36,590 nt of DNA from a virus, in the IMG/VR virus record IMGVR_UViG_3300030389_003338, positions 1 through 36,590 of that record; one strand, given 5' to 3'. Below the pieces are notes generated by a model. That model made no database searches. It was not told the DNA's origin and worked only from the letters and a program-made list of their open reading frames with translations. A program made the position numbers and the translations under genes. Below, piece by piece: positions 1 to 27,355 of this stretch; the stretch's first letter is position 1, and each line of letters opens with the position of its first letter.

Positions 1-158
1 TCATCTCGTGATAAATCTTTACCTTCAGATACTTTAAGAATAAAATCGCCTATAGATTCATCGTTAAGCTCTCCAGCTCCAAAAAATTTCTTATTTTCTA
101 TTCTTTCTATAGCTAATTCAATATGCCTATTAAGCTGTACAACTGCATCTTCATAATA
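1..158. repeat. Left copy of imperfect terminal overlap
   Basis: Bases 1-158 align without gaps to 36433-36590. I count nine mismatches (left positions 2, 63, 64, 75, 114, 115, 120, 123, 143), about 94% identity. Both copies lie in the same frame of the same giant gene, and five of the changes affect protein residues: V/L, I/M, L/S, N/T and E/K. This is therefore an overlap of a circular or permuted genome from two closely related variants, not an exact direct terminal repeat. Confidence 0.9.
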
Positions 159-3100
159 CTCGTACATATCAGCAGTTATAGTATCAAATACTCTAGGCTT
201 TGTAAATGATGGCTTGCCCTTTATATAGCTATACCCTTTAAATAGTTGATTTATTACATTTGCTTTATCTGACTCATCGAGTTTTACGTTGTCTTTTTTC
301 TCTTTAGCTGCTATTTGCTTTTCTATATAGGTCTTAACCTTCTCTTCACCAAATAACATAGTCGTTAAGTCATCGTAGTTTGTAACTGCTCTTGGGAAGT
401 ATCCTTCTATGTATCCTATTTCTTCACCAAGCTCTATTAACTCTTCTCTTAATGAATCTAGAATACCTCTTATGTCTTCTATGTTCTGTAAAAAATCTTC
501 AGCGTTTTTTGTTTTTTGTGCCAATTTTTGCATAGTACCAACATCACTATTGTGCATTGCAAGTTTAAACCTTGTTTGGTCATTACTATCAAGCTGTCTT
601 ATAAATTTTTCTAATTTGAGTACAAACTTTTGGGATTCTGTTATTTTTGCATTAGTATTGAATTGGTGTTTTAATAACCTAGAGTATATTTTGGGGTCTA
701 TTCTTTTAAGTAGGGTTGAAATAGGTATTACTGTACTACCAATTGTACCTATTCTTGCATCTTTAGGTCTTCTTCCTGACTTTGTTTTTCTATTTACTGC
801 ATCATACACATCTTTTGATTGAGATGGTGATACTATTTGGTAGCTTACTTTTTGTTTTTTGGGGAGCTTATTTTTGTCAAATCTTGGTCTGAGATTTGAT
901 ATGTTGTCCCTGAGAACTTTTGAGTATCGTTCTGGATTTTTTTGCTCGTACTTTTGGATGATGTTGATGTATTTTTGGTCTGCTTTCTCTCTGCTTTCAA
1001 AAGACCCAATAAACCTTGCATTACCAACTCTTTGTTTAATTTCTTTTTCATACGCTACCTCCTTAAAATTTCTTATTGAATCTAATAATTTTGTACCTTC
1101 ATCTACAACAATTAAATTAATTTTATTTCCTGTGATAGGTATTGTTTTAAATTCTATTCCACCATCAGAAATCATTTTTAAAAATTGCTTTATATTTTTT
1201 AAATCTTTATTAAATTCAATCTCATACATTGAGTCATAACCATTCTCATTTACTTCAAAATTTAAGATTGTAAGCTGTTTACGAGATAATCCTTTAATAG
1301 CTGCAATGTAATCTAATTGCTCGCTGTCTATTTTTGATGTTATTTCAGTGTATACGCTTGGCTCTGCCCCTGTTTCCCATTCACCTAAACTAGCTTTAGT
1401 TGTAGATTTTAATCCTTGTTCAACTTCTAAATCTGCTACAAATCTATGATAATCTATTAAAGTTTTTGATTTAATTCCTTGTATTGCTTCATCTAGACTA
1501 ATATCTTTTATTTGTGGACTTGCAACTTGTATGCCTGTAGTCTTAACACCAAATATGTTATTATCTCCAGTCTCTAGAAACTCTTTGAATTTTGATGATA
1601 TAGATGATTCTTTGTTAGTTAATGCAAGATTGTATGTTTTTGCCATTAAAAAAGATGACTTTATTCTTGAATCACCTTCAGGAAGCTCGCCCATAAGTTC
1701 ATTTAATGGTATAGGTTCTTTTAGTTCTCTATAGCTTTTAAAGTTTATTTCATGGTCGTATGCTGGATGTTTTACTTTTCTATCTTCTCCAGTTCTTACA
1801 TCTTCTATTTCTGCTACTGCTACTACTTTGCCTGCAATTTGATTAAAATCAGGGACTGCAACTTCTCTACCTAGTTGCTGTAAATTAAGTTTTGCAGCGA
1901 CTGCTGTTTTATGAATGTCTTTGTTATTTTTTCTATAAAGTTGATTAAACTTTCTAACTCCTACTTTTTTCTTTATAGCTCTTTCTATAGCTGCAATAAA
2001 TGTAGGATTAAACTTCATTGCATTTGCTGCATTTGTAAGAGTTGTAATTGCTATTATGTTATTACCCTTAGAAACTTGATTTAATATTTTTGTTGCTGGA
2101 GCTTTTGTAACTGCCCACCCTTTATATGTTCTAGGGTATCTTATTCCAAAATCTTCTTGCTCACCTTTTAAATTTAAATTTGCTCCATCACCAGCTATAA
2201 AAAAAGTTCCAACATTTTTGTTTTGGTCTGCAGATATAATTTGATATGTTTTATTAGATTCTTTGGGCTCTTTAAAATCTATAGGTATTTGACCTGGCTT
2301 CACTCCCCTCTTAATTAAATCTTCTTCTTTTAAAGTAGCTGCCTCATCTGGTGAAGGCTCAACTCCAGGTCTTAATGTAGTTCTCTTTTTAGGTTCTTGT
2401 ACTTGCTCTTCAACTACTTGCTCTTCAGCTATTGGCTCTTCAACTACTGGTTCTTCAACCTTAGGCTCTTGTTTTGCTTCCTTATCTGTAAGCTTTATGC
2501 CTTTAGCTCCAGCCTTTCTATAAATTTCTTGTACTTCATCAGTTAAAGTAATATTACCAAATATTCTATTAACTCTATTTTTTAAATTTTGATATATTCT
2601 TTGTACTAGAGACTTTGGCTCTATAGCTGTATCTAAATAGTATTTAGCTTTTGCTTCTTTTGAAAACAGCTCTTCTATTGAAAGTTTGCTGTTAGGGTCT
2701 ATTTGCCTATTTTCAGGTAATTTTTTGTTTATCTCTTGATTAATTTCTTTTCTAGCTTCTAGATTGTTTTGATAGTTATTGTAATATTCTTTAAAAGATT
2801 CTAGCTCTTGTTCACTTAAGCCACCTTTATAGACAGTTTCAAAAAATTCTTCAAGCGATGTATCAAAATCTGCACCTCTATTAATATTAATAACAAACCT
2901 TAAATTTCCTTCAACTCTTTGCTTGTAGTTTGAACCTAATATTACAGCTTCAGTTGTCTCGCCTGACAATCCTTGACTTTCAAGTGTTTTGCCCTCAGCC
3001 TCTAATTCTTCTTTTGTAATAGTAACAACTTCATCTACTATATTTATATCCAAGTTTTCAGATAAATTGGGGCTTTTCTTAATTATTTCTTGTAAAGTTT

Positions 3101-5696
3101 CAAGTGCTTGCTCCATTCTTATATCATCTGATAGCTCATTAAATCTTTCTTGTTGTCTTTTTCCTAACTTTCTTTTTTTATTAACAAGAGTATTGTATTC
3201 TTCTGAATTTTTTTTATTTTTTTCTGCAACTTCTTTTAGCTTATTTGCTGCATCAGGGAATGATTCCTCAAATCTTTTTTGTTTTTTTGCTTCTATGGAA
3301 TCGTTTGCTAGTGTAATTCCTGTGCCTGCTAATCTACCTGAAGCCCCTGGTATCAATAATACTGCAGCTTCAACTGCTTGGTTTCTTTTAAATTGTTCCC
3401 AGTTACCTGATTTAATTAAGTCTGTATATAAACCTCTAGCAAAATCTTCATCAAATCCTTCTACTATACCTGCCTCAGATAATTTATTTAAAACAACTCT
3501 CGTTGCTTCACCTGCTCTCTCCTCTAAAAATTCTTCAAAAAAGCCATCATATCCTGTTGCATACAAAAACTTTTTAATACTCTCTGCTGTTTTTTGGTCT
3601 ATTTTTATATCAGGTGCTTTTGATTTAATAGATTTTATTAATGAATTTGCAGTTGATTCTATCTGCACTACAACTTTAGCATCCTTTGGTAATTTATTGT
3701 AAGCTGTTTGTATTGGCTTTACTGTTGTAAATTTTAATGCTTTTAATAATCCTGTACCAGTAAGCTCCCAAAATCTTTCATTATATTGAGTTGTCCTTGC
3801 TTGTCTTCTAGCAGTCTTTTCATCTTTACCTTTAGTGTAAATTCTTGCACCTTCATCAGAAATTTGTATGCCTGGCATAATTAATCTTAAGTATTCAGCT
3901 TCTTGACCAGGACCTAATTCAGATAATGCAACTACTTTTGTTCCTACTGCTGTTGTAATTTGAGCACCTTTTTTAACTGCTTTTGTTTTAAGTTTATTTT
4001 TAGCCCAATTTAAAGCAGATTTTCTTACTCCTAAATAAACTGCATATTGACTGCTTTTTTTAGCTAAATAACCACCAGCTCCTGCAGCTCCTCCTCCTAA
4101 TAATGATGCTACTCCAAACTCTCCCATAAATGGTATAGATTGTGATATACCTTCTACTATAGATGCTCCCATGGTTCTTGGTCTAGATTCATACTCAACA
4201 AAATCTTCTAATGTTTTTACTTCTTCATCGGTAAGCTCTGGACCTAATCCTTTTTGTGCGTCCATATCTTTTTTAATTAATAAGCCTATGTTTGTATACT
4301 CTTTAACTAATTTTGCATCTTTAACAAATGGAGCCAAGTCAACTGGGTTTATAGATGTTAATGCCTCCCAAAAGCCCATATAATTTTCTACAGTATTGTC
4401 TTCACTTTCTATCTCACCTATAAGTGTAGTTATTTCTTCTAGCCTACTTTTTATTTCAGGCTTTTTTTCTATAATCTGTTCTCTAGTAGCGTTGGGACCT
4501 ATAATATAGTTAACTATAAATCTTTGCAAGTTACCATCAGCGTCAATGTTATACATCTCGCTTACAATCTGTCGAGTAGCTTCTTCGGCTTCTTCAATGC
4601 TGTTAAATTTTGCCCATGTACCACCATCCGATGCTGGTATACCTGAATCTACTGCTCCAAACTTTGCAGGTCTATCCCCATACTTTATTGCCCCTAAATT
4701 ATTAAGGGAGGCTAGTATGCTTGCTGTTTTGTACTGTGGATATTTTTCTGGATTCTCATTATATAAATTTGCAGCCTTTTGTATACCTTCATACTTTACT
4801 GTAGTATCTGCAATTACGCTTGTAATTTTTCTATTGTCTTCTTCTATCTTTTCAATGCTTGCTATTTTTTCATTACTAGTTTTAATCTCTTGCTTGGTGG
4901 TTTCTGATAGTTCATCTGGTATGGGTCTTAAAGTTTGCTGACTTAAAGGCATTTGCTCTAATTGACGTTTATTTTTTTCTGCCCTTATCTTGTCTTCTTT
5001 AGGTCTTTCTCCATAGAAGTCTTTTTCTAAAGTACCCTTTGCTGTAGAGTCTTGAAACTTTCTTAAAAGCTCTACATAGGCTTCACTTCCATCTTCTTTA
5101 ATTTTAGGTGAGCTTGCTAGCACCTCATCTACCAATTCTGGATTATCAGACATCCATTTATCAAAAGCTGCCCTACTATTTTTATATGGGTCAATACCTA
5201 TAAGCTCTGTGTATTTTTGTCTTTTATCTTCTTTTTTTTGGTTTATTTTATTTTCTAATTCTTTTGCTACGTTTTTTTGGTCTATAACTGATTGTACATT
5301 AGTTAAGGTGTTTACTGGTTCTTCTGTTGGCTGTGGTTCACTTATGCCCTGTAGACCTGCAATCAAATCTTCTGTTCTAGGCTTTTGTTTAGCTAACGCA
5401 GATTGAGTTACCATTAGCCTTCTTTCCTCTAAGGTTTGTCTTTGCTTAAACGCCCCTCTTCCTGGAGTACCTTCTCGTATAGATTCATAAATTCTTAGGT
5501 CTGGGTCTATAGGATTATCTAAACGATTGTTTAATATAGTAATGTTTTTAGCTTGCTCTTCTGTAAACCTTGTTGGGTCCTGCTGAAGCTGCTGACCAAA
5601 TTCTCTTATTTGCTGTTTAGTTGCATCGTCTACCCCTTCTACTGAGTAATATGGAGTATACTTTCTTTTGAAGATATCTTTAAATGGATTTGCCAT
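1..5696 (-). CDS. Giant internal virion (ejection-type) protein, N-terminal 1,898 codons
   Basis: This is one open frame from ATG at 5696 (MANPFKDIFK) to the left edge with no stop. It continues in frame at 36432-34935, giving 2,397 aa in total. Its place after two Ala/Gln/Lys-rich proteins and the adaptor/nozzle genes matches the large internal virion protein of podoviruses (T7 gp16-like role), which is ejected with the DNA. Near residues 320-420 there is a lysozyme-like stretch (NNLGAIKYG, AKFGA, TWAKF, then an amphipathic EEAEEATRQ helix), resembling NNPG-type virion-associated muralytic domains. Residues about 510-550 are Gly/Ala-rich and hydrophobic (SLLGGGAAGAGG). Near codons 1080-1100 there is an acidic hinge of five-residue VVEEP-type repeats. 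The rest is Lys/Glu-rich and helical. The ATG overlaps the previous stop as TAATG. The lytic role is inferred from the motif only. Confidence 0.8.
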   Translation of the reverse strand, partial: MANPFKDIFKRKYTPYYSVEGVDDATKQQIREFGQQLQQDPTRFTEEQAKNITILNNRLDNPIDPDLRIYESIREGTPGRGAFKQRQTLEERRLMVTQSALAKQKPRTEDLIAGLQGISEPQPTEEPVNTLTNVQSVIDQKNVAKELENKINQKKEDKRQKYTELIGIDPYKNSRAAFDKWMSDNPELVDEVLASSPKIKEDGSEAYVELLRKFQDSTAKGTLEKDFYGERPKEDKIRAEKNKRQLEQMPLSQQTLRPIPDELSETTKQEIKTSNEKIASIEKIEEDNRKITSVIADTTVKYEGIQKAANLYNENPEKYPQYKTASILASLNNLGAIKYGDRPAKFGAVDSGIPASDGGTWAKFNSIEEAEEATRQIVSEMYNIDADGNLQRFIVNYIIGPNATREQIIEKKPEIKSRLEEITTLIGEIESEDNTVENYMGFWEALTSINPVDLAPFVKDAKLVKEYTNIGLLIKKDMDAQKGLGPELTDEEVKTLEDFVEYESRPRTMGASIVEGISQSIPFMGEFGVASLLGGGAAGAGGYLAKKSSQYAVYLGVRKSALNWAKNKLKTKAVKKGAQITTAVGTKVVALSELGPGQEAEYLRLIMPGIQISDEGARIYTKGKDEKTARRQARTTQYNERFWELTGTGLLKALKFTTVKPIQTAYNKLPKDAKVVVQIESTANSLIKSIKSKAPDIKIDQKTAESIKKFLYATGYDGFFEEFLEERAGEATRVVLNKLSEAGIVEGFDEDFARGLYTDLIKSGNWEQFKRNQAVEAAVLLIPGASGRLAGTGITLANDSIEAKKQKRFEESFPDAANKLKEVAEKNKKNSEEYNTLVNKKRKLGKRQQERFNELSDDIRMEQALETLQEIIKKSPNLSENLDINIVDEVVTITKEELEAEGKTLESQGLSGETTEAVILGSNYKQRVEGNLRFVININRGADFDTSLEEFFETVYKGGLSEQELESFKEYYNNYQNNLEARKEINQEINKKLPENRQIDPNSKLSIEELFSKEAKAKYYLDTAIEPKSLVQRIYQNLKNRVNRIFGNITLTDEVQEIYRKAGAKGIKLTDKEAKQEPKVEEPVVEEPIAEEQVVEEQVQEPKKRTTLRPGVEPSPDEAATLKEEDLIKRGVKPGQIPIDFKEPKESNKTYQIISADQNKNVGTFFIAGDGANLNLKGEQEDFGIRYPRTYKGWAVTKAPATKILNQVSKGNNIIAITTLTNAANAMKFNPTFIAAIERAIKKKVGVRKFNQLYRKNNKDIHKTAVAAKLNLQQLGREVAVPDFNQIAGKVVAVAEIEDVRTGEDRKVKHPAYDHEINFKSYRELKEPIPLNELMGELPEGDSRIKSSFLMAKTYNLALTNKESSISSKFKEFLETGDNNIFGVKTTGIQVASPQIKDISLDEAIQGIKSKTLIDYHRFVADLEVEQGLKSTTKASLGEWETGAEPSVYTEITSKIDSEQLDYIAAIKGLSRKQLTILNFEVNENGYDSMYEIEFNKDLKNIKQFLKMISDGGIEFKTIPITGNKINLIVVDEGTKLLDSIRNFKEVAYEKEIKQRVGNARFIGSFESREKADQKYINIIQKYEQKNPERYSKVLRDNISNLRPRFDKNKLPKKQKVSYQIVSPSQSKDVYDAVNRKTKSGRRPKDARIGTIGSTVIPISTLLKRIDPKIYSRLLKHQFNTNAKITESQKFVLKLEKFIRQLDSNDQTRFKLAMHNSDVGTMQKLAQKTKNAEDFLQNIEDIRGILDSLREELIELGEEIGYIEGYFPRAVTNYDDLTTMLFGEEKVKTYIEKQIAAKEKKDNVKLDESDKANVINQLFKGYSYIKGKPSFTKPRVFDTITADMYEYYEDAVVQLNRHIELAIERIENKKFFGAGELNDESIGDFILKVSEGKDLSRD
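2397..2461 (-). repeat. 15-bp coding repeats forming an acidic hinge
   Basis: Four tandem units of about 15 bases encode VVEEP, VVEEP, IAEEQ and VVEEQ within the giant virion protein. The Pro/Glu composition suggests a flexible linker between the N-terminal, partly membrane-like part and the C-terminal helical part. In-register repeats of this type can change copy number. Confidence 0.7.
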
Positions 5697-6649
5697 TAAC
5701 GTAACAACTCATCTAGTTCATCATTTGTTATCTTTTGTTTCTTTTTTCTATCAGCGTCTTGAGTTGATTTTTTAGGTTGTTGTTGTAAAACGTCTGGTAG
5801 CTGTTGATTTTGATTTACTCTAATTGGCTCAATTCTTCCTCTTACAAATCCACCTTTTCCTAACCTTAAATCATTATTATTTTGCATGGGTACATTCTGA
5901 GGGAATTGAGGAAGCTCACCTGGTCTAGACATTGTGAATTTTTGGGATTCTTGCAATGCAGCATCTTCTGCTTGAACCCTCTGTTCTTCTTGTAATCGTA
6001 TTCCTTCCTCTTGCTCTTTTAATAATTTTTCTTTTTGTAGTTGCATTTGCGTTTGTCTAGCATCTGGACCTATATTAGCGTCATTTTGAAAAAGACTGGA
6101 AATTTCTTGCAATGCATCTGCGTTATAGTTTTTATTACTCATGCCACTTAATTTGTTAGCCATCCTAATAAACTTGTCTTCTAATTTAACAACTTTATCG
6201 TACTTATCTAAATTCTTTAAATTATCTGGTTCATTCATCCCTACATCAGGATTATACCCACCTCTTAATAGTTCTGCATAAGCAGTTCTTAGCTCACTTT
6301 TTAATTCATTGTAAAGCTTTTCTTGACCAGATGTAGTTTTTAACTCTTCTTCTCGTCTTTCTCTATTAATGCGTGCTTGTATGCTTGTTTTCTTTTCTTT
6401 AAGTCTTATTTCTTCAAGAATTTTTCTCTCTTCTTCTTCCTCACGCATTTTATTTATTTCAGATGGACTAATTTGTTTCATTTCTGTAATTTTACCTGCA
6501 TTGTTAATTTTAACATATACATCATTGCCACTTAAATAACTATATTCTGGGAATTGAGTTATATCAATAAGCTCTCCTTTAAACTTGCTTAAATCATATT
6601 TTCTTTCTAAGAATCTAGCTGCTCTTCTATTTTTTTTTGATAAACTCAT
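5696..6649 (-). CDS. Internal virion / ejection-type protein, 317 aa
   Basis: No family is recognised with certainty. The protein begins MSLSKKNRRAARFLERKY and is rich in Glu, Lys and Gln. It has long predicted coiled-coil stretches (about residues 60-120 and 195-240, including EEEEERKI and LQLQKEKLLKEQEEG) and a Gln/Pro-rich, probably disordered C-terminal third. It lies between another helical Ala/Gln-rich protein and the giant virion protein, and its stop overlaps the giant gene's start (TAATG). This order matches the three internal core proteins of T7-like podoviruses (gp14, gp15, gp16), so an ejected core component is the likely role. That is inference from position and composition. Confidence 0.6.
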   Translation of the reverse strand: MSLSKKNRRAARFLERKYDLSKFKGELIDITQFPEYSYLSGNDVYVKINNAGKITEMKQISPSEINKMREEEEERKILEEIRLKEKKTSIQARINRERREEELKTTSGQEKLYNELKSELRTAYAELLRGGYNPDVGMNEPDNLKNLDKYDKVVKLEDKFIRMANKLSGMSNKNYNADALQEISSLFQNDANIGPDARQTQMQLQKEKLLKEQEEGIRLQEEQRVQAEDAALQESQKFTMSRPGELPQFPQNVPMQNNNDLRLGKGGFVRGRIEPIRVNQNQQLPDVLQQQPKKSTQDADRKKKQKITNDELDELLR

Positions 6650-7324
6650 TTAAAACCCCAACTGTTTTTGTGCATTTGTTCCTTCCCCTGTTCTGAGACG
6701 CATTGAAAGGCTATTGTCAAAATCTGTTCCTGGTACATAATTTTCTGCTGCACTTGTTGCTAGTCCTGTAGCTGCGTCAACTAACCCTGATGTAAGTGCT
6801 TGTCTTGATATAAGCTGTGCTAATGAAGCATCATCTTTTACACCTTGCCTTTTCATTGCAATCTCTCTAAGAAGTTGACCTCTTCTCATTTGTGCTTGTG
6901 ATAGTCTTCTTGCTGCCTCAGCTTTAGTACGCTCATTATCCATCGCTATTTGACGTGCTTGCTGTGCTATAGACGCTCTTACATCTGAACCTATTTTACG
7001 AGAAACATCTTGTGCTATTATTGAGCCCTCTAATCCTTGTTGAGTAATTCTTTGCATTGCCTGTGCTTCTTGAGCTTCTCCTTGCTGATATAGAGGCTGT
7101 GCCATTTGTTGATTTAATCTTTCAACATCCATCGTTCCTTGCTCTGCACCTCTACGCATTCTTGCCATTGCTTGCTGCTCTTCTGCAGTCATTTGAGATG
7201 CTAAATCTAATTGTTTTAAAGATGCCTCTTTTTGCTTTTTTATTGCTTTTTTCTCTTGTTTTCTTTTTATTGCTGAACTTATTGCTTTTCCTGCTGCTAT
7301 TGCTGCTACTACTGGGAATGACAT
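6650..7324 (-). CDS. Internal virion / ejection-type protein, 224 aa
   Basis: The N-terminus is short and hydrophobic (FPVVAAIAAGKAISSAI). It is followed by a strongly basic helix (KRKQEKKAIKKQKEA) and then about 130 residues of Ala/Gln/Met/Arg-rich helix. This is typical of small podovirus ejection proteins such as T7 gp14 or P22 gp7-like proteins, which insert into the envelope after release. The start codon overlaps the stop of the preceding adaptor gene (TAATG at 7326-7322), so translation is probably coupled. Function is inferred from composition and position; no catalytic motif is visible. Confidence 0.6.
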   Translation of the reverse strand: MSFPVVAAIAAGKAISSAIKRKQEKKAIKKQKEASLKQLDLASQMTAEEQQAMARMRRGAEQGTMDVERLNQQMAQPLYQQGEAQEAQAMQRITQQGLEGSIIAQDVSRKIGSDVRASIAQQARQIAMDNERTKAEAARRLSQAQMRRGQLLREIAMKRQGVKDDASLAQLISRQALTSGLVDAATGLATSAAENYVPGTDFDNSLSMRLRTGEGTNAQKQLGF

Positions 7325-8337
7325 TAGATTTCCTCCTTAATACTATGCATAAGGTCTCTATCTAGTGATTGGTTCACATATTTATCCATACTTAAAGACC
7401 ATTTTGTCCAATAGGTGTTATATAGTTCTGGTGAAGATTTAGCGTTTGCTAGTGCTACTGCATAATCGCATAAGCTTGCATGAAATCTGTTTGGTATTAA
7501 TGGTGCCTTGCTCCTGAAGTTTTTAATAATTATCATACTACCATTAATTGATGTAATTCCATTAGCAAGCCTAGAGCCTTCTGGATTTGCACCTGCATCT
7601 AAACCTAGTTTCTGCGTTACTTTATATATTGACAATCCATTGTTGCTGTCTAGCTGACCTACTGATGCACCCATATCATGTATATTATTTGTATCACCTT
7701 TGTCTGGCAAGCCTGGTATTCCTGTAATGAAACCAAATGGCTGCCCTAATATTGACCCTGGTGCTGCTAGTGCTCCTGAAGTTTTTTCCCATCTATACTG
7801 CAATCCTGCTAGCTCTGTACTGTGCTCTGTATTTAACATCACAAAATCATTATCTGAACCTGTTTCAACATAAGATAAAATTGTTAAAACTCTATCTGCA
7901 CTTCTATTTGTTAGTGATTCTTTGTAGTGAAGTAAAAATTTATCTGACTGCTTAGGTGCTCTATTAAATACAATGAACTCACCTGCTATTGAATATCCTG
8001 TAGGGGTTCCACCTGGTACTGTATTGTCATTACTTTGCCTGTATATTTCATCTTCTGTTAATTTTTTTAACCTTGTTCCTTCATGGTAAACAGCTACATC
8101 CCTTACATACTCTGGAGGCAAATGAAAGTAGTTCCTGTCAACGTACTGCTGAGATGTTGCATGAGTTGATATACCACCACCAGTAAGCGTGTTTGATACC
8201 TGAATAGTGTACAATGCGTCATACAGCTCTAACTCATGAGACAGCTCTTGCTCTGCCTCTTTTAAAAGCTCCTTTAGCAGACCACCTGGTGCGTCTGTAA
8301 AGAGTAAACATCTATCTACTAATTTATCCCATGTCAT
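7324..8337 (-). CDS. Head-to-tail adaptor / tail tubular protein-like, 337 aa
   Basis: The N-terminal helical part (KLVDRCLLFTDAPGGLLKEL, then EAEQELSHELELYDALYTI) followed by YFHLPPEYVRDVAVYHEGTRL and a C-terminal helix fits the adaptor proteins that bind the portal (T7 gp11 / P22 gp4-like). The middle, about residues 170-270, is Gly/Asn/Asp-rich and may be an inserted beta domain. The C-terminus (CDYAVALANAKSSPELYNTYWTKW) resembles the usual terminal helix of this group. It lies between the nozzle-like protein and the ejection proteins. The family link comes from pattern and synteny. Confidence 0.6.
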   Translation of the reverse strand: MTWDKLVDRCLLFTDAPGGLLKELLKEAEQELSHELELYDALYTIQVSNTLTGGGISTHATSQQYVDRNYFHLPPEYVRDVAVYHEGTRLKKLTEDEIYRQSNDNTVPGGTPTGYSIAGEFIVFNRAPKQSDKFLLHYKESLTNRSADRVLTILSYVETGSDNDFVMLNTEHSTELAGLQYRWEKTSGALAAPGSILGQPFGFITGIPGLPDKGDTNNIHDMGASVGQLDSNNGLSIYKVTQKLGLDAGANPEGSRLANGITSINGSMIIIKNFRSKAPLIPNRFHASLCDYAVALANAKSSPELYNTYWTKWSLSMDKYVNQSLDRDLMHSIKEEI

Positions 8338-8338
8338 A

Positions 8339-8455
8339 TTAACTTCCTTGTTCTAATTTTTTTATTCTTGCCTCTAACTCAGATATTATCTGTTGTAATC
8401 TTGCTATTAATTTATTTATTTCTTGGTCTGTTGACTTATATCCTATACTACTCAT
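8339..8455 (-). CDS. 38-aa coiled-coil peptide
   Basis: A complete short ORF starts with MSSIGYKSTDQEI and continues as a heptad-rich helix (IARLQQIISELEARIKKLEQ). Its ATG overlaps the last codons of the 1,198-aa gene upstream, and it ends two bases before the adaptor ATG, so it fills the gap in the operon exactly. Similar tiny coiled-coil ORFs sit beside tail genes in other phages. It may be a small assembly factor or chaperone; the function is unknown. Confidence 0.6.
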   Translation of the reverse strand: MSSIGYKSTDQEINKLIARLQQIISELEARIKKLEQGS

Positions 8456-11400
8456 ATTCTAGCTCAACTTTTTCTATTTTTAAATTTTGATTTGTATTAT
8501 CTTCAATTTTTACTTGTATGCTTTTTCCTCTGTTCCCAGTAAATGGTCTTGTAGATTGCATTCCATTTAAATAACTTCCATTTGAATATGATGCAGAGCC
8601 ACTTTCATTAAAAAATACTGCTAAGTCTGCCCCTGAAGATGCTGCATCTACTTTTGTGCTTATTCTTCTTAATAAAGCATTTTGGTCAAATGATGATAGT
8701 TGTTCAAATCCTGTTCTCATTTTTATATTTATTGGAACTGTGCCTGCATCTTGATAAGAGCTAGTGTCTTCAAGTAGTCTAATTTTTGAACTAGATGCTG
8801 CCTCTATTAAAATTGTATTATTGTTGTTGTCTATTGACATTTCATCTAAAACTAAATTTGTGTGAAGTTCATTGGTCCATACACCTCTAGATATATCATA
8901 TAAATAAAATAAAGTGTTACTTCCATTAGAAGAATTTGTATATAAAAGCCTAATTCTGTTATTTTTAACCTCATAATGCAATCTAAATAGTGATGGATTT
9001 GCTAATGCTTGAGATTGATATGTGTCTTTAATAGGATTAGATATTATATTAGCTGTAAATCCTGAATCTAAATATACAATTCCATCTTTAGAACAAAAAT
9101 ATATTCCATTAGGTGCTTTTGCTATCGCTTTATCATTTAAACATCCTATGTTAGGATGAGCCTCTACTAAACTCCAGCTAGTTGGGTCTCCACTAGGCAC
9201 ATTAATTCTAAATATTCCCCTTGTCATAAACACAACAATGTCATTCATTAGGGTTTCTATTCCTAGTATCTCTCCACCTTGGAGGTCGTCAAGTTTTATA
9301 AAGTTACTTGTAGGTATTACATCTGGAGAGCCTGCGTTTGAAAACATAACAAAGTTAGGGTACTCTTCTGTATTTCCATCTTCAGTAATTTTTACATTTG
9401 CTACAAACTGTCTTCCATTGAGCATTGTAGCATATTTAAATTTTACGTCTGTTGATGTAGATGTTTCATTAGGATGTCTAGCTCCGTCTGGCAATCCAGG
9501 GTCAAAAAAGTCCATTTTAACATATGATGAAGTATTGTCGTTATCCCAATAAAATTGATAGTTTGAGCTACCAAAAATATAACTTTCTGCTTGTGTATTA
9601 GCACTAATTCCTGGAACTCGGTCTACACATTTTATAAAAGGTCCATAGTTGTCTGAAATATAGCTTCTGTCATCATCTACGTCAACAGGAATAAACAAAC
9701 CTGGATTAGTAGAATCTTCTTGTATTCTGTTGCCTTTTAAAGTCCCAGGGGGGAATTGTAAATCTTTTATTTCTGAAGATGCTATAACATTTCTTCCTGC
9801 AAAGCCCCTTAAGCCTTGTGATAGTTCAAATCCTGATACTTCTTCTCTAACAGATAATCCCCAATATTGAACACATCTAAATTGGTCTTGAGTTGTATCC
9901 ATTTGCGAGTTGTCTGGAGTATTTATAAATGTTTTTAATATTAAATCATCATCATCTAAAGTTATTTTATGTTGAAAATATGTCCATGGAAAATTTGCAT
10001 TTTTATCTCCCTTTGAATCAAAAATTAATTGTTGACCTGTATCACCAGGATTACCACTAGATTGACTAGTACCTACTTCTAGATAACTTTTTGCAGACGA
10101 TTCAGGGTGGTCTAAATTTCTAACTGTAACCCATCCACTAACTATAAAATTACCTGTTAAATTAGTGCCACCAGTGTTGAGTCTATGTGACACACCTGCT
10201 AATTTTATTTCATTTCCAGTGAAGGTTTTTCCGTCATTTGCTATAGTAAAATCTAATCCTGTTGAAGCACCATCAGCTATAGGATGACCAAAAGGATTGC
10301 CTGTAGTGTAATCAGAATTGTCTGCACTCATATCACTATCATAGCCATTTATATCTGTTGCATTAGTATCAGATACATTAGTAGCTATTTTTTCAGAATT
10401 ACTTGCAAAATACCACCCTCCATTAGGTGAACCCCCTGAACAGGTATCATCACCTCCTAATATTGGCTCTGTTTCTTCAGATATATAATTAAATTTACAA
10501 GTTTCCATATCTCCGTATTCACTTCTAGATAAACCATTTCCTAAAACTGCTTGTATATTTGCCATTAAATCTACTGATTTAAATCCTGTAGACTGGTAAT
10601 TATTTGCTCCACTGGCATTTTGAACCATGTAAGAAATGCAATCCATCATTAATACTTTTTGATTTAATGTAGTGTGGGTGCCTTCACTCCCTCCTTCTAG
10701 TGCATTTCCTCCTGAAAACCATACTCTATCAGTTTCCGAGTATGCATTTGTAATTTTATGCTGATTAGTATCATTATCTCCCATGTATATAGATTTTATT
10801 TTGTAGTACGTTCCATTGTTTGTGCTTCTGTATACATTTATTGCACTTGTTCTTGGATTAAATTTGCTTAAATCTATTTTTGTAGTTGAAAGCATACAGC
10901 CTTTTTTATTGCTTGTAACACTGTTTTTATTTTTTTTATCAGGGATTCTATTTAGTACATTAGTTGAGGTTGTTGTTAAAGCATTTTCTAATAGTCCCTC
11001 TTGGACTCCATCGTAAACTGGTACAAACTTATAAGTATACTCATTGTCTTCTAAATTTAATGTTCCGTTTATATATCTTATGCTATCATTTATTCCACCT
11101 TTATCATCAATTTTAAATGTCTCTAAGGTGTAAGTACCTGTATCAAGCACTGGTACTGCAGTGTCCATAAACCATCTAGGGTACATTGTGTGTGCATTAG
11201 AATTATAAACTGCTTTTAATAAACCGTTAAAATGTTGCCTGTTAACATACTTAAATATCAATGGAGAGTGGTCTAGTCCACACGCAAATCTAACACCATC
11301 TGTGTATGTTCTCATCCTAATGTGCATATCTGAGGCATTTGCTATTGTTGTAAGAGTTTCCAAATCTCCAAAGTCATTAGAATTAAGCATACCAATTTCC

Positions 11401-12044
11401 ATATTTGTTCCATCTGCGTATGTTACTATTAATGCTTTACCATCAAATGAATTTGCGTCATTAATTTGAAGGTTGTTAGGTACTCCATCGCCACCACCAG
11501 TAAACCCATCATTATTTCTATCAAATACAAACGTAAACTGTGCTGTAACTGAGCCACCATCTAATTCTTCATCTACTACTGCTGTTTTAAATGTTATTTG
11601 CGTAGCTGAATCAACTGATTCTATAACTAAAGCTTTGTTTTTGTTTTGACAAGCTACACCACCATCGGTTGCAGACGTACTTAAAACTATAGTATCTCCT
11701 GCCTTAAATATATTTCTAAGGTCTGCTGTTTGCCCTGGTATAATTAATCCTGTCGTATCGTCTAAATTCATCCTTCCATTAGATGCAGTAAATGTTATTT
11801 TGTTTGCTGATACATCTGAAATTCTAGCCCCTGTAAGCTTTCTATGTACTAGTATGCCTGCGTTATTAATAATACAGCTAGTATTTCCTGATACTGTTGT
11901 TGGTGCTCCTGTGCCATATCTTTTTACCAGAGAACCATTTTCATGCCTTAAGTTTTGCAAATCTGAAAATTCATTAAAACCTTTTTTAAGCTCGCTATCT
12001 TGTAGGTTTAAACCACCATTTAAATTTATTTGCTTAAAAGTCAT
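8448..12044 (-). CDS. Tail nozzle / tubular protein-like, 1,198 aa
   Basis: The N-terminus reads FKQINLNGGLNLQDSELKKG, then LQNLRHENGSLVKRYG. This is the usual opening of podovirus beta-propeller nozzle or stabilisation proteins (P22 gp10, T7 gp12 role). The C-terminal half keeps blade-like segments: GEILGIETLMNDIVVFMTRG, GIYFCSKDGIVYLDSG, LFYLYDISRGVWTNE and a final IKMRTGFEQL strand region. Between about residues 535 and 740 there is a Ser/Thr/Asn-rich beta domain that looks like a carbohydrate-binding jelly roll (ending QYWGLSVREEV), which helps explain a length above that of ordinary nozzle proteins. The start overlaps the previous stop (TAATG). Fold assignment is by pattern only. Confidence 0.6.
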   Translation of the reverse strand: MTFKQINLNGGLNLQDSELKKGFNEFSDLQNLRHENGSLVKRYGTGAPTTVSGNTSCIINNAGILVHRKLTGARISDVSANKITFTASNGRMNLDDTTGLIIPGQTADLRNIFKAGDTIVLSTSATDGGVACQNKNKALVIESVDSATQITFKTAVVDEELDGGSVTAQFTFVFDRNNDGFTGGGDGVPNNLQINDANSFDGKALIVTYADGTNMEIGMLNSNDFGDLETLTTIANASDMHIRMRTYTDGVRFACGLDHSPLIFKYVNRQHFNGLLKAVYNSNAHTMYPRWFMDTAVPVLDTGTYTLETFKIDDKGGINDSIRYINGTLNLEDNEYTYKFVPVYDGVQEGLLENALTTTSTNVLNRIPDKKNKNSVTSNKKGCMLSTTKIDLSKFNPRTSAINVYRSTNNGTYYKIKSIYMGDNDTNQHKITNAYSETDRVWFSGGNALEGGSEGTHTTLNQKVLMMDCISYMVQNASGANNYQSTGFKSVDLMANIQAVLGNGLSRSEYGDMETCKFNYISEETEPILGGDDTCSGGSPNGGWYFASNSEKIATNVSDTNATDINGYDSDMSADNSDYTTGNPFGHPIADGASTGLDFTIANDGKTFTGNEIKLAGVSHRLNTGGTNLTGNFIVSGWVTVRNLDHPESSAKSYLEVGTSQSSGNPGDTGQQLIFDSKGDKNANFPWTYFQHKITLDDDDLILKTFINTPDNSQMDTTQDQFRCVQYWGLSVREEVSGFELSQGLRGFAGRNVIASSEIKDLQFPPGTLKGNRIQEDSTNPGLFIPVDVDDDRSYISDNYGPFIKCVDRVPGISANTQAESYIFGSSNYQFYWDNDNTSSYVKMDFFDPGLPDGARHPNETSTSTDVKFKYATMLNGRQFVANVKITEDGNTEEYPNFVMFSNAGSPDVIPTSNFIKLDDLQGGEILGIETLMNDIVVFMTRGIFRINVPSGDPTSWSLVEAHPNIGCLNDKAIAKAPNGIYFCSKDGIVYLDSGFTANIISNPIKDTYQSQALANPSLFRLHYEVKNNRIRLLYTNSSNGSNTLFYLYDISRGVWTNELHTNLVLDEMSIDNNNNTILIEAASSSKIRLLEDTSSYQDAGTVPINIKMRTGFEQLSSFDQNALLRRISTKVDAASSGADLAVFFNESGSASYSNGSYLNGMQSTRPFTGNRGKSIQVKIEDNTNQNLKIEKVELEYE

Positions 12045-18302: not shown

Positions 18303-20564
18303 TTAAAATATTATTATAACACCTGCTGGTCTATCACTAACTTCAACAGATTCTTTTTCTACTATTCCAAGTGATGAAAGAGCAATACTTGAAAGAGTAT
18401 TTCCACTAACATTACCTCCAATGCTAATTTTTCTAACAAAATCTCCCTTATTAGCTGCAGTAATAGTATTTCTAACCCTAGTTCTGCCTTGCACTATAAC
18501 CTCTACGTCTTCTCCATCATTTGCATTATTTTGAGCAATTCCCCATTTTCTAAAGTCACACCATGTTCCATTATCTGTATCTGTAGCTAAATTAGGAATA
18601 TTATCAGGTATACACCTGTAGTTGCCATTTGCATCCAAATACAAAGATACTGGGCAAAAATCATAGATAGTACCATTTGCCTTTGCTGTTACCTTTATTG
18701 TCCGTTTCCAGTCTGTAATAGTTCCGATTGGAGTACCTTGGAATATTGTAATGGGAACATCATCGCCTGCTCCTCCACCCTCCATTACTGTACCTAGAGC
18801 GTTAGGAGCATATAATGCAGGGTTTGTTGTTGTCGATACCCATCCTTGTTCCGTAATTCTAACCACTAAATCACCTGAGTTTCTATATGGAACTGAATTA
18901 TGTGTGCTTATAGTTGTTTTTCCTGCTACTGTAACTGGAATTATGTCTCCACTTACGCCACCTAGCTCGGCTACGCCCCATTTACCTGGGTCTGCGCCTG
19001 TGTGGTCTGTATTAGCATCAGGGGCTGTTTCTGGAATATCATCGTGTCTACAAAGTAAATCTCCTTCTGAATCAAGGAACAGCGACACTGGTCTGAACTT
19101 AGTTATTGTCTCATCACACTTAGCCATTACCTGTAGAGAGTTTTTATGTACAAAATGCTCTGAAAATTCTACCCCTTGCCAAAGAATTATAGGTTGGGTT
19201 GCTGATTCATTTGCATTAGTTTCTGCAATAACTCCCACTTGATTTGGCTTTGCAAGGTCATCACCTCTATCTATTGCATCACCACTTGCAGTTATTTGAG
19301 AAATATCGTACCCTGCTACTGTATTATAAGTTCCAGATTTACGCAGTATACATTCTCCTTGAACTGTTACATCTATCTCATCCCCTGCCACTCCTGAGGT
19401 TTTCATTGCTCCAGTAGATTGGTCGTATACGCTTGATACAATACCAAATTTATACGCTGGTGCGTTGTAGTAGTCGTATCCATAAACCTCTTTAACTGAT
19501 ACGTCATCTATTTGAAAAGTTACACCATTCCCTGCAAATACTGTTAAATAAAAAGTCCCACTTTCCCCTGCAGTGAATGTATGCTCCATGGTATCCAAAG
19601 ACGTACTATTTAATGTTTGTTGACTTGAGCCACTTATGTTAGCACCCCCTGTACTTGAATTGCTTGAGCCTATCTTTGAAAAAGCATTTCCACCACTCAC
19701 TATATATTTCATTGAAACTTTATAAGTTCTACCATTTTGAAATGCAATGCCATTACTTACAACTCCAGCATTCTCACCTGCGTTATTTACTAATTTTAAA
19801 TCTTTAGTCCCTGCGAGAGGGCTTGATGTATTTGCTTTATCTAAGGTAGCTCCACTCCCACTTCCTCCAGAATAAACTAATGTCCAATTTGCGTCAGAGC
19901 TTTCAAAATTTGTATTAGTAATAAGCTCACTCCCTAGTGCCTCTGTGTTTACACTTTGAGATGGGATTGTGTCATTTACTGCCATTAGCTTGTAGGTGTG
20001 GTCTACTACCTCGTAAAGCTGTATATCGTCTATAAATATTTCTGCGTCATTATCTTCACCAGACTCATTTATTCTAAATTCTAAAGTAGAATTAATTGCT
20101 GTAAACACTAAAGATTCTCTAAAAACACCAGTTGTTGCATTACTTGTAAATGATATTATATCTGCATAAGCATCTACATCGCCTGGGATACCTAGTCTAA
20201 ATTTGCATTTAGAATCAGTTGTGTGGTTAGGTATTGTTCTGTTAAAGCTAATTTTGTATGTTTTTCCTACGCTAACATTAAAATTTCCTTGAGCTACATC
20301 ATTTGCATCCCCTACTAGCAATCTAAGAGATGTTCTTCCAGATACTGGATTGGTTGCTAACTCTACTACATCCATCTGGACAGAACCAGTACCTGTTGTA
20401 AATGGTGCTACAGTCCCATCTTGAAACTTGCCATTGGTAGCTAGATTTTTAGAAGAGTATTTAAGCTCATCCTCTTTAATGTATAGGGATACTGGCTCTC
20501 CTAGGTCTACTGCTCCTCCGAGCTCTGCTCTTACATTTCTCTGTGCCTTATAATTATTTATCAA
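18303..20564 (-). CDS. Modular surface protein B: decoration-like repeats plus two CBM-like domains, 753 aa
   Basis: Start is TTG at 20564-20562, overlapping the previous TGA (TTGA); there is no other Met before residue 64. Layout: residues 22-37 are a PVSLYIKEDEL half-module. Residues about 38-185 and 211-360 are two CBM4/9-like jelly rolls (end motifs IFIDDIQLYEV and FQIDDVSVKEV). Decoration-type segments follow at 371-424 (GDEIDVTVQGECI), 441-470 (TQPIILWQGVEF), 476-570 (RPVSLFLDSEGDL, KWGVAELGG, GDIIPVTVAGKT), 589-614 (DDVPITIFQGTPI) and 623-713 (CPVSLYLDANGNY, KWGIAQ, GEDVEVIVQGRT). The closing strand RPAGVIIIF parallels AGSILIY of the decoration protein. It probably projects from the head and binds glycans; whether it sits on the head or tail cannot be told from sequence. 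Confidence 0.72.
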   Translation of the reverse strand: MINNYKAQRNVRAELGGAVDLGEPVSLYIKEDELKYSSKNLATNGKFQDGTVAPFTTGTGSVQMDVVELATNPVSGRTSLRLLVGDANDVAQGNFNVSVGKTYKISFNRTIPNHTTDSKCKFRLGIPGDVDAYADIISFTSNATTGVFRESLVFTAINSTLEFRINESGEDNDAEIFIDDIQLYEVVDHTYKLMAVNDTIPSQSVNTEALGSELITNTNFESSDANWTLVYSGGSGSGATLDKANTSSPLAGTKDLKLVNNAGENAGVVSNGIAFQNGRTYKVSMKYIVSGGNAFSKIGSSNSSTGGANISGSSQQTLNSTSLDTMEHTFTAGESGTFYLTVFAGNGVTFQIDDVSVKEVYGYDYYNAPAYKFGIVSSVYDQSTGAMKTSGVAGDEIDVTVQGECILRKSGTYNTVAGYDISQITASGDAIDRGDDLAKPNQVGVIAETNANESATQPIILWQGVEFSEHFVHKNSLQVMAKCDETITKFRPVSLFLDSEGDLLCRHDDIPETAPDANTDHTGADPGKWGVAELGGVSGDIIPVTVAGKTTISTHNSVPYRNSGDLVVRITEQGWVSTTTNPALYAPNALGTVMEGGGAGDDVPITIFQGTPIGTITDWKRTIKVTAKANGTIYDFCPVSLYLDANGNYRCIPDNIPNLATDTDNGTWCDFRKWGIAQNNANDGEDVEVIVQGRTRVRNTITAANKGDFVRKISIGGNVSGNTLSSIALSSLGIVEKESVEVSDRPAGVIIIF

Positions 20565-23398
20565 AACAAATAATACTCCTTATTATCTCCACTTAACGCT
20601 ATTCCATGTGGTGTCATACTAGTTAATGGTAAGTATGTTAAGCTTGGATTTTTAAAAAACCATTGCGTAGATACTGCGTTTGTTTGAAATATTGCAAAAC
20701 CATCTAATGATGCATTGCCTGATGCAAAGTATACATACGCATATGCTTCTCTTTCAGTTGTTGTTAACACATTTGAGCCATTATCAAAAAATCTTAGTCC
20801 GTATTTAAATCCTTCACCACTTGTTGTCCCATTTGATAAGTCTTGCCTACCACAATTAATTATAGCTGGGTCTGTGTTACTTGCTGACCAAAGTGTGCAT
20901 TTAAATAACGCTACAGTGTGACCTACATGAGCTACTGACGCTCCAGTCTCTAAAGGCTCTACTTTTATATTACTTATAGTAAAATCATCCTCTGAACTTC
21001 CATAGGTTTGAAAATATATTGTATTAGAACTAGTACCATTATCTTGATTAATAGTAATAATTTCAGTATAATCACCATTACCTGTGCGTGTTGCCCCTAT
21101 TCCATGTCGTTGACCAGTGCCTCCTGATGCACTTGAATATAGTATAGCTCTTATTTGACCACTTTTATGGTTTGAAATTGTGTATGATACCCTATAGGTT
21201 TCATTGTCTGCAAACGATGTTTCTACTTGTGCAAAATATGCTGCATCGGAGCCAGCTGGGACTACAGACGCACTCCCTGTTTTGCTATCCCACACCCAAT
21301 TTGCATCAGACCCTGCTATGCCTGAAAGGTCACTCCATAGATTCCAGTTAGCATTTGTTCTTTTTAAGATTTTAGCATCAGGTATATGAGCACCTTCTTT
21401 TTTATCTGAATTATTTGCTGTTCCTGAGCCTGTGATTGCTATTCTATTATTTCCTGTGTCTTGGGAAAATGTAATGCTTGAATTAGGTGAAAAATCTACC
21501 CAATTTGACGCTGACCCCAATGTTCTGTCGTTTTCGGTAAATATCATCTCAAATTCATCTCCTGGGGCTGAACCATTAATTCCTTGAGTTATGCTTATGT
21601 CTCTAATATATTCTCCTGGGCTTAGTCCACTTGTTACGTTTGTATGTAAATCAAATATAGCTGAATCTTGCTCCAATTTACCCCTAACAAGAACATCAAC
21701 ATATGCCTTATCTCCTACTGAATCTTCAAGCTGGATTCCACTTTTACCTTCTGGTACAATACTGACATTTTCATATGTAGGATTACTTAAAGTATCTGTT
21801 ACGCAATTTAAATCCCCATTTGAATCTCTCCATAATGATACAGGTTTTTTATTTGTTGAAGAGCTTGTAACCGTAGACCACGCTTTTGCTTTTACAATTT
21901 GCTGCTCTCTGTAGTCTCTAATTTCACCCTCTGGAACTCCTGGGTCTATACATATCATTCCTGTTTCATTTACTAGAGTTCCTAATATGGCTGGTAATAC
22001 ATCTCTATCAGATGCTGTATCTTTGTGAATAAATCCAGTTAATCCTATTCCTAAAACCTGTGCATCTTTATCTGTAAATCCATCCTCTACTAAAGATATG
22101 CTGTCTAATTTTATTGTTGTCTCCTGGTCAGCCTTACTATTTCCACCTGTTCCATTTCCCATAGTTAAATTTAATCTACAATATTCTCTACCTTCATCTG
22201 ATAATGTAAAGGTATGCTCATACAACACCCAATCAGTTGTTAGGGTTATTGTGGTAGGACTACATATAGTTTCACTAGTATCTTTTCCATCAAGTAAATT
22301 AATAATAATTTTTGCACCTGCGTCTGCTGCTTTAGCGTACATACTAAATTTATAGTTAACATTTTCCGATAATGGAAATTCCATATTGTAAAATTGAACG
22401 CTACCTTGCTGTGTGCCAGAATCAGTTATTTCTATATCAAGTCTTTTATTGCCTGAGACTGCTCCACCACTTTTAACTTGCATTGTTCCTGCTGCTCCAA
22501 CTGATGAATTAAAAAATTTATTCCATCCATCTGTATTATGAATATCGCCTGTTGAGTATGAGTCAAATGTACCATCTCCATATAATTTATTCCCTTCGGC
22601 ACCAGGATTAGCTACTTGGACAAAACCTGCTATAACTATCTCTACTACGTCTCCATTAGAGCCACCAGTCTCACACACTCCCCATTTGCCAAATTCAGGA
22701 TACCTAGAAGTATTACCAGAGGTATCTAACTGACCATCGCTATCGGTGTCCATTCTTGGTATAGGGCAGTTGTATCCTCGCAAGTCTCCATTTGCATCTA
22801 AAAACAATAACACTGGACATCCTGCATTGACATCTCCTGATAACTTGCAATATACTCTAAATGACTGACCTGTGTTATAGCTTGGGATAGAAGGTATTTC
22901 TGAGCCTTGCCATATTATTACCTTGCAATCATCTCCTACATTCCCTACCACAACTCCTAAATTATTTAATAAATATCTAAGGTCTGCATCTGCTCCATCA
23001 TCAAAATCTCCTGGGTCAGTTTCTGGGGTTTTTCTAGCAGAAAAATAATTTACATTATTGACTCTTTGTAGGTCAATAGCATTAATAGCATGACCTGCTG
23101 GTTTATTTTCTCCTGGTACTATAATTTCACCTTGGGTTATAACCTGTACATCAGCACCACCATCGTGATTACCTTCTACCCATCCCCAGTTATTAGCAGT
23201 TTTTCTATAGGTGTCATATACGCTGTTTCCAACAATAGGTGCTGGAGTGCATACACGCTTTACCTTTGATGGAGAATTTTTATCGTACTTATAGGATATT
23301 CTTACAAATGCACCATTATTTCTAATATGATGGGTAAGCTCGCAAGACTTATATTTTCTGCTTTTATAATTTGTTATGTGTGGACTTCCTGTTATCAA
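20561..23398 (-). CDS. Modular surface protein A: decoration-like repeats plus CBM-like domains, 945 aa
   Basis: Start is TTG at 23398-23396, overlapping the terminase TGA (TTGA); the next Met is at residue 305. Decoration-type segments occur at residues 30-110 (WGWVEG, GADVQVITQGEI), 141-170 (DDCKVIIWQGSEI), 178-270 (CPVLLFLDANGDL, KWGVCETGG, DVVEIVIAGFV), 441-500 (a degenerate LGT-type segment) and 500-600 (KPVSLWRDSNGDL, KAYVDVLVRGKL, GEYIRDISI). CBM-like jelly rolls lie at about 271-440 (ending IKLDSISLVED) and 625-815 (ending FTISNIKVEPLE). The C-terminal 820-945 is a different, possibly lectin-like, beta domain. It is paired with protein B and shares its modules, suggesting ancient duplication. 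The location between terminase and portal suggests a head-associated fibre. Confidence 0.72.
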   Translation of the reverse strand: MITGSPHITNYKSRKYKSCELTHHIRNNGAFVRISYKYDKNSPSKVKRVCTPAPIVGNSVYDTYRKTANNWGWVEGNHDGGADVQVITQGEIIVPGENKPAGHAINAIDLQRVNNVNYFSARKTPETDPGDFDDGADADLRYLLNNLGVVVGNVGDDCKVIIWQGSEIPSIPSYNTGQSFRVYCKLSGDVNAGCPVLLFLDANGDLRGYNCPIPRMDTDSDGQLDTSGNTSRYPEFGKWGVCETGGSNGDVVEIVIAGFVQVANPGAEGNKLYGDGTFDSYSTGDIHNTDGWNKFFNSSVGAAGTMQVKSGGAVSGNKRLDIEITDSGTQQGSVQFYNMEFPLSENVNYKFSMYAKAADAGAKIIINLLDGKDTSETICSPTTITLTTDWVLYEHTFTLSDEGREYCRLNLTMGNGTGGNSKADQETTIKLDSISLVEDGFTDKDAQVLGIGLTGFIHKDTASDRDVLPAILGTLVNETGMICIDPGVPEGEIRDYREQQIVKAKAWSTVTSSSTNKKPVSLWRDSNGDLNCVTDTLSNPTYENVSIVPEGKSGIQLEDSVGDKAYVDVLVRGKLEQDSAIFDLHTNVTSGLSPGEYIRDISITQGINGSAPGDEFEMIFTENDRTLGSASNWVDFSPNSSITFSQDTGNNRIAITGSGTANNSDKKEGAHIPDAKILKRTNANWNLWSDLSGIAGSDANWVWDSKTGSASVVPAGSDAAYFAQVETSFADNETYRVSYTISNHKSGQIRAILYSSASGGTGQRHGIGATRTGNGDYTEIITINQDNGTSSNTIYFQTYGSSEDDFTISNIKVEPLETGASVAHVGHTVALFKCTLWSASNTDPAIINCGRQDLSNGTTSGEGFKYGLRFFDNGSNVLTTTEREAYAYVYFASGNASLDGFAIFQTNAVSTQWFFKNPSLTYLPLTSMTPHGIALSGDNKEYYLF

Positions 23399-25868: not shown

Positions 25869-26064
25869 ACGCATAGTATAATACAAAAAAGTGATACAAA
25901 TCACCTTATTTAAAAGTAAGTAAATAAATTTTTTTTATAAATTTTGTCGTCCAGGATTTAATCTTTTTTAAATCTTTTTAAAGATTTTTCTTGCATATAA
26001 TATTTAAAGTGTTTTAACTTAGTGTAGCGTTCAAACAAATAAACTAACAAAGTTTAACAAACAA
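25869..26064. promoter_or_regulatory. Divergent control region between late and early blocks
   Basis: This AT-rich gap of about 200 bases separates the leftward and rightward gene blocks. It holds a perfect palindrome AAATCTTT-TT-AAAGATTT (25970-25987) nine bases before TATAAT (25996-26001), a -10-like box facing the plus-strand operon. A second palindrome, GTGAT-ACAA-ATCAC, lies at 25891-25904, beside a TATACT box facing left. No good -35 is visible for either box, which suggests activator dependence or a non-standard promoter. Confidence 0.5.
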
Positions 26065-26075
26065 AAGGAGTAGCA

Positions 26076-26369
26076 ATGAAACTAATGACAAAAGAGATAG
26101 AAAATCAAATACCAGCACTATATGAAACCGAAAAACTAGGAGATAAAAAAACGGCTTATGTTAAATATTTTTGTCCATGGAATAGTTGGACATGGTATGG
26201 CTGTGAATATGATGGAAAAGATACATTTTTCGGCTATGTAGTGGGACATGAAAAGGAATTTGGATACTTTTCATTAAGTGAATTAAAGAGTATTAAGGGA
26301 ATGTTTGGATTAGGCATAGAAAGAGATAAGTTTTTTGAGCCTACACCATTAAGTGAAATAATAAAATAA
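26076..26369 (+). CDS. DUF2958 family protein, 97 aa
   Basis: Nearly the full family pattern is visible: MKLMTKEIENQIPALYETEK, AYVKYFCPWNSWTWYGCEYD, then FFGYVVGHEKEFGYFSLSEL, and the end FGLGIERDKFFEPTPLSE. DUF2958 proteins are widespread in phages and plasmids, often beside anti-restriction or conjugation genes, and have no proven activity. It is the first gene of the plus-strand operon with RBS AAAGGAGTAGCA. A role in host takeover is inferred from position. Confidence 0.85.
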   Translation: MKLMTKEIENQIPALYETEKLGDKKTAYVKYFCPWNSWTWYGCEYDGKDTFFGYVVGHEKEFGYFSLSELKSIKGMFGLGIERDKFFEPTPLSEIIK

Positions 26370-26387
26370 CAAACAAAAGGAGTAGCA

Positions 26388-26654
26388 ATGAAATATAAAA
26401 TCGTAAGAATGTATAGAGATGACAGACCTAGTAAGATTATGTATACTGGGTTCACTTTAGAACAAGCTCAAGCTCACTGCCAGAATCCAAATACAAGTGG
26501 TGATGGTTGGTTTGATGGGTATGAGGAAGAAACAGAAATAACTATTACTGGACTAGAGTCAGCTCTGGAAGATGCACTAGACTCTCTAGCTGAACAAGAC
26601 ATTGCATCATTCTATAAAAAGAATGTTAATAAACTAAAAAGGAGTAGCAAATAA
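26388..26654 (+). CDS. Conserved phage protein, 88 aa
   Basis: MKYKIVRMYRDDRPSKIMYT, then GFTLEQAQAHCQNPNTSGDG, then WFDGYEEE. This pattern recurs in small ORFs of many phages, but I know no function for it. The last codons (KRSSK, stop) double as the RBS of the next gene, because GGAGTAGCAAATAATG is read in frame. The upstream region repeats that of the DUF2958 gene almost base for base. Confidence 0.7.
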   Translation: MKYKIVRMYRDDRPSKIMYTGFTLEQAQAHCQNPNTSGDGWFDGYEEETEITITGLESALEDALDSLAEQDIASFYKKNVNKLKRSSK

Positions 26655-26812
26655 TGAAGAAAGAAATAATCGACCTAATAATACAAAAATCAGAAGACAA
26701 TCTTAAGAAATATAAAGCTATGTCTAAACTGAAAACTAGTAAATGTATAATAACTGAAGCATTGGCTGATTCTATAAGTATGTCAATGTATCTAGAAGGG
26801 GGTAGCAAATAA
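26654..26812 (+). CDS. Hypothetical 52-aa protein
   Basis: MKKEIIDLIIQKSEDNLKKY is followed by a helix-rich part ending ISMSMYLEGGSK. It is coupled on both sides by TAATG (26652-26656 and 26810-26814), and its last codons form the next RBS. No family is recognised; it is small and probably helical. Confidence 0.6.
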   Translation: MKKEIIDLIIQKSEDNLKKYKAMSKLKTSKCIITEALADSISMSMYLEGGSK

Positions 26813-27018: not shown

Positions 27019-27042
27019 ACAAACAAACAAAAGGAGTAGCAA

Positions 27043-27351: not shown

Positions 27352-27355
27352 CAAA

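Follow-up and report, generated by a model that had tools for sequence, protein, structure and literature searches.

Imperfectly overlapping ends of a tailed-phage contig very probably represent one spot of a circular map in two co-occurring strains

Direct terminal repeats (DTRs) of viral contigs are called by CheckV from a repeat of at least 20 bp shared by the start and the end, and the lengths of such repeats pile up at the k values of assemblers, as stated in the CheckV article (PMC8116208). In a case given by Chen et al. 2020 (PMC7111523), a non-unique region stopped the assembly of a genome, and two small variant sequences were both able to circularise it. Fragmentation of viral assemblies by microdiversity is described in the articles on PenguiN (PMC11443906) and VirION (PMC6487183).

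The window, i.e., the whole stretch of DNA analysed here, comprises 36,590 nucleotides of IMGVR_UViG_3300030389_003338. The IMG/VR record itself has exactly 36,590 bases; therefore, the features of the window ends belong to the record's own ends and not to an arbitrary cut. Recognisable genes encode the terminase, portal, major head protein, internal virion protein, replication initiation protein, exonuclease and Erf-like annealing protein, a set which identifies the source as a tailed phage. The major head protein shares 22–33% identity with those of Myxococcus phage Mx8 and others (13 records), and positions 1–12000 of the window have no near match among phages. Two adjacent large proteins, encoded on the minus strand between the portal and terminase genes (18303–20564 and 20561–23398), each contain a CBM_4_9 carbohydrate-binding domain (E values of 2.3e-11 and 3.3e-10, respectively) and are possibly tail spikes or fibres. 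Self-comparison revealed a cluster of short imperfect direct repeats at 26055–27370 (26055–26081, 26367–26393, 27014–27056 and 27341–27370), located among small ORFs upstream of the terminase gene.

The first and last 158 bases of the window align without gaps and in register, with 149/158 identities (94.3%) and nine mismatches, located, in the numbering of the left copy, at sites 2, 63, 64, 75, 114, 115, 120, 123 and 143. The unit derived from this overlap is 36,432 bp, and no third copy was found in a self-comparison of the whole window. The relevant features are as follows.

1–158, minus strand: left copy of the overlap (the 'L' haplotype), within the gene of a giant protein, from the alignment to 36433–36590.
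36433–36590, minus strand: right copy of the overlap (the 'R' haplotype), at the same map position, from the alignment to 1–158.
1–5696, minus strand: beginning of the giant gene, from its ATG at 5696 through codon 1,898 and into codon 1899, where the contig end truncates it; collinear with the uninterrupted ATG-started gene of IMGVR_UViG_3300030060_007764.
34935–36432, minus strand: remainder of the giant gene, extending to its stop codon and not including the overlap; contiguous with the left part in two related contigs (L003 and L004, described below), with 95–96% DNA identity.

With base 36432 joined to base 1, a single frame on the minus strand runs from 5696 down to 1 and then from 36432 down to 34935; it has 2,398 codons, the last of which is its only stop. 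Within the overlap, seven codons are changed, two synonymously and five non-synonymously, the residue changes between the copies being V/L at 1852, I/M at 1859, L/S at 1861, N/T at 1878 and E/K at 1899. The overlap is far beyond chance: the best of 200 shuffles gave 63 identities versus the 149/158 observed, and the blastn E value is 2.6e-65. The nine differences in 158 shared bases, the five amino-acid changes and the joined frame of 2,398 codons had all been listed in the initial annotation, and every number was reproduced by the alignment.

Protein queries from both sides of the join retrieved the same two IMG/VR contigs from other metagenomes, namely, IMGVR_UViG_3300030060_007764 (L003, G001) and 3300025132_000372 (L004, G002). 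Each of them contains the overlap once, with the right flank of the window on one side and the left flank on the other, so that window positions 34875 (L003) or 34533 (L004) to 36590 are joined to 1–845 or beyond. In G001, the entire giant gene is present on one contig, and residues 1–2397 of the joined protein are aligned with 92.6% identity. The C-terminal part of the protein matched 8 of 20 related records, in all eight of which the protein alignment spans the join (residue 1899) within one open frame. The join thus restores an interrupted gene, and the two contig ends are contiguous in related genomes. The proposal that the contig is close to a complete circle of about 36,432 bp is confirmed by the single-copy joined flanks in the two independent contigs and by the eight records crossing residue 1899.

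Alleles of both ends are present in these two relatives at five of the nine sites. At site 75, L003 has the right letter and L004 the left one; at sites 114, 115, 120 and 143, L003 has the left letter and L004 the right one; at the remaining four sites (2, 63, 64 and 123), both have the left letter. Since the relatives hold now the left, now the right letter, both versions are natural, segregating alleles. Positions 38–39 are common to both window ends and different in both L003 and L004. All four allele combinations of sites 75 and 114 occur among the L and R copies, L003 and L004, which hints at recombination in the population, although one repeated synonymous change would give the same result. 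No exact counterpart of either end version was found elsewhere; a 40-base pattern of the right end had no matches in viral_contigs. Assignment of the two ends to different relatives by flank alleles was attempted and rejected, the left flank containing six L003-like and six L004-like sites, and the right flank 13 and 20, respectively.

The divergence of the ends is about that between the window and other contigs of the group. In 158-bp windows around the join, the analysed contig differs from L003 and L004 by means of 7.4 and 7.2 positions, and at least nine differences occur in 32% and 35% of these windows, respectively; L003 and L004 differ from each other by a mean of 3.6 positions per 158 bp. 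An excess of amino-acid changes in the overlap was also considered and rejected: it is nominal relative to the neighbouring 781 codons (nonsynonymous to synonymous ratio of 5:2 versus 25:65 around the join, window compared with L003; Fisher p 0.03), and there is no marked excess relative to the whole gene (5/7 versus 167/367 changed codons, window compared with G001).

The longest exact run common to both ends is 60 bp, and a comparison of the first 2 kb with the last 2 kb revealed no shared 61-mer. Long k-mers could not close the circle over so short a run, which is the probable reason why it was left open. An exact terminal repeat of at least 20 bp, as required by the CheckV rule, is absent; the record fails this exact prefix/suffix test and therefore remains 'linear'.

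Imperfect end overlaps are frequent in related records, albeit in a small sample. All 18 contigs of at least 35 kb (35–40 kb) among the matches listed, which represent at least 118 distinct loci, were analysed by comparing the first and last 4 kb of each record. Overlapping ends were found in 14 of these 18 contigs, two of them exact (123 bp in G011 and 127 bp in G013) and 12 imperfect (G003, G004, G005, G006, G007, G008, G010, G012, G014, G016, G017 and G018). The overlap of G004 comprises 599 bp with 96.3% identity; in G006 and G018, both from metagenome 3300030329, 98 exact bases are followed by a last base which alone differs; in G008, 96 exact bases are followed by an unmatched tail; and the overlaps of G003, G005, G010, G014 and G016 require insertions or deletions. 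No overlap between the first and last 4 kb was found in G009, G015, G019 and G020, nor was an end overlap present in the short records G001 and G002, as expected for fragments. In a control where starts were paired with the ends of other records, 3 of 702 pairs formed a dovetail; G004 and G005, whose breaks nearly coincide on the map, account for two of these.

Among the overlapping records, the terminase gene was located in 12, and the distance from its start downstream to the break is 0.9, 3.8, 11.5, 22.2, 27.9, 28.2, 28.6, 30.1, 33.3, 36.3, 36.7 and 37.0 kb; in G017 and G018, the capsid gene served as the reference point. The break of the window lies 24.7 kb downstream of the terminase start. 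The breaks are partly clustered, at 28–30 kb and at about 36–37 kb, yet there is no single terminus.

The unrelated HTVC010P group was used as a control, with seven records tested from a terminase search that yielded at least 80 loci. Among its four full-size metagenomic contigs (>34 kb), one has an exact overlap (107 bp) and three have imperfect ones, represented by 101 bp with one mismatch, 3.3 kb at 95.2% identity, and two pieces with an insertion. No end overlap was detected in the HTVC010P isolate genome or in two shorter contigs (31.3 and 29.8 kb). The imperfect overlaps of this group show that the phenomenon is not special to the phage group of the window. One member of the HTVC010P group, IMGVR_UViG_3300046170_000124 (L266, L267; 38,187 bp), continues for about 3.3 kb beyond a full circle (95.2% identity), and as a result the terminase gene is present twice, one copy being in two pieces.

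The ends of the window very probably represent the same spot of a circular map read from two slightly different co-occurring strains. The initial annotation had offered either a mixture of two strains or a junction between variants captured from a recombinant or concatemer; the former is favoured by the segregating alleles, the divergence usual between strains, and the recurrence of imperfect overlaps at scattered places. The contig would represent a full turn of a circularly mapping tailed-phage genome (36,432 bp) and a further 158 bp, from a sample in which two or more strains, several per cent apart at this locus, were presumably present. More than one contig of this group occurs in several metagenomes, e.g., three in 3300030060 and three in 3300025132. 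Assembly would have started on the haplotype of one strain and ended, after a full turn, on that of the other; to a de Bruijn assembler with a long final k, which was probably the type used, the two versions would appear as two unrelated paths, leaving the circle open and the record 'linear'. In a clean de Bruijn bubble, k bases would be shared at each branch point, and the difference already at position 2 counts against it; given this mismatch, the ends are putatively low-coverage tips or further forks.

The strongest alternative is a real recombinant or concatemer junction, in which single molecules carry the left haplotype and, one genome length later, the right one; such molecules could arise, for example, when concatemers formed by recombination of co-infecting strains are packaged with terminal redundancy. 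The Erf/Rad52-like annealing protein and the exonuclease encoded by the phage are consistent with this explanation, as are the four allele combinations at sites 75 and 114, which either recombination or one repeated mutation would produce. It is, however, unnecessary to explain the contig, the molecules would need to dominate the sample to set the consensus, and the breaks are scattered in related records; such a junction is accordingly very improbable. That individual molecules have different strain versions at each end, via mixed concatemers packaged with terminal redundancy, is highly improbable; if true, it would mean that particles are often heterozygous at their ends.

The position of the overlap at the very ends of the record and its DTR-like length would fit a linear genome whose fixed ends lie inside the gene and carry a direct terminal repeat that has diverged. 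DTR phages regenerate their terminal repeats from a single sequence during packaging, and the two copies should be identical. The two copies here differ by nine mismatches, the break would split the largest gene, and no end position, relative to the terminase or capsid gene, is conserved across the 14 related overlapping records, which leaves this explanation with almost no credibility. An incomplete linear genome with a paralogous copy of the gene at each end, to which the five amino-acid differences could be attributed, is extremely unlikely, since both flanks are joined by one copy in two relatives and the reading frame continues across the join, matching one uninterrupted gene collinearly over 2,397 residues. 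The initial annotation had named separate paralogous copies as the finding that would refute its reading, and this is contradicted by the one copy that the relatives hold between both flanks. Targeted diversification by a retroelement would fit variation in a gene of the structural module and differences that are mostly amino-acid-changing, but it can be practically dismissed, as a template-like third copy is absent from the window, no reverse transcriptase was found among the 19 larger proteins scanned against PHROGs, the differences match alleles of the relatives, and the gene varies along most of its length.

The scanned pieces of the giant protein in the window have no significant Pfam or PHROGs match, the one Pfam hit at E 0.05 being a sub-threshold 14-3-3 domain (E 0.011, 15.8 bits versus a cut-off of 33.2). 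They also have no match in the phage collection, and the left piece has no match in PDB by sequence; an AlphaFold model made for the C-terminal 551 residues has too low a confidence to be of use (mean pLDDT of 36). In a scan for polyvalent-type domains, which covered the window protein in pieces and the proteins of relatives other than G001 and G007, ART-PolyVal was found above the cut-off in G002, G013 and G017 and below it in G019, while LPD38 was found in G003, G004, G005 and G010. Residues 1125–1608 of the window protein (873–2324, minus strand) are replaced in G002 (L178:6205–8247, minus strand) by a different block of 681 residues, which ends in ART-PolyVal (E 9.8e-18) and is flanked by regions of 90% and 95% identity; judged by this alignment, the swap is an apparent exchange of a cassette in a polyvalent-type protein. 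Some relatives, whose giant genes are represented in their C-terminal parts by L167, L168, L169 and L174, have a window-like N-terminal part or middle, but an LPD38 domain at the end in place of the C-terminal part of the window type. Profile comparison revealed no similarity between the C-terminal parts of the window type and the LPD38 type (probability 1%).

The imperfect overlap of the window, with its ends very probably read from two co-occurring strains, is an ordinary feature, a common side-effect of assembling mixed virus populations that involves no special phage structure. Its consequence is one of record-keeping more than of biology: owing to a failed exact-match end test, a complete genome is classed as a linear fragment. 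If mismatches and indels were tolerated in the end test, many complete genomes would be recovered from mixed populations of marine phages; the imperfect overlaps themselves mark places where strains differ.

The giant protein resembles the polyvalent proteins described by Iyer et al. 2017 (PMC5512222) in being a very large multidomain protein encoded after the virion genes and in the ART-PolyVal and LPD38 domains of its relatives, but differs from them, as far as described there, in that its pieces in the window lack significant Pfam or PHROGs matches. The contig resembles the 'DTR contigs' of CheckV (PMC8116208), in that the overlap is roughly as long as a k-mer, lies at an arbitrary point of the map and arises from a circular template opened by assembly; those contigs are characterised there by exact repeats of at least 20 bp, whereas the overlap described here is 94.3% identical. 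Similar to the cases reported in the articles of Chen et al. (PMC7111523) and on COBRA (PMC10914622), PenguiN (PMC11443906) and VirION (PMC6487183), variants of one region block circularisation or fragment the assemblies of microdiverse phages. In the case of Chen et al. (PMC7111523), the variants are represented by separate small contigs, whereas here both versions are located at the ends of one contig.
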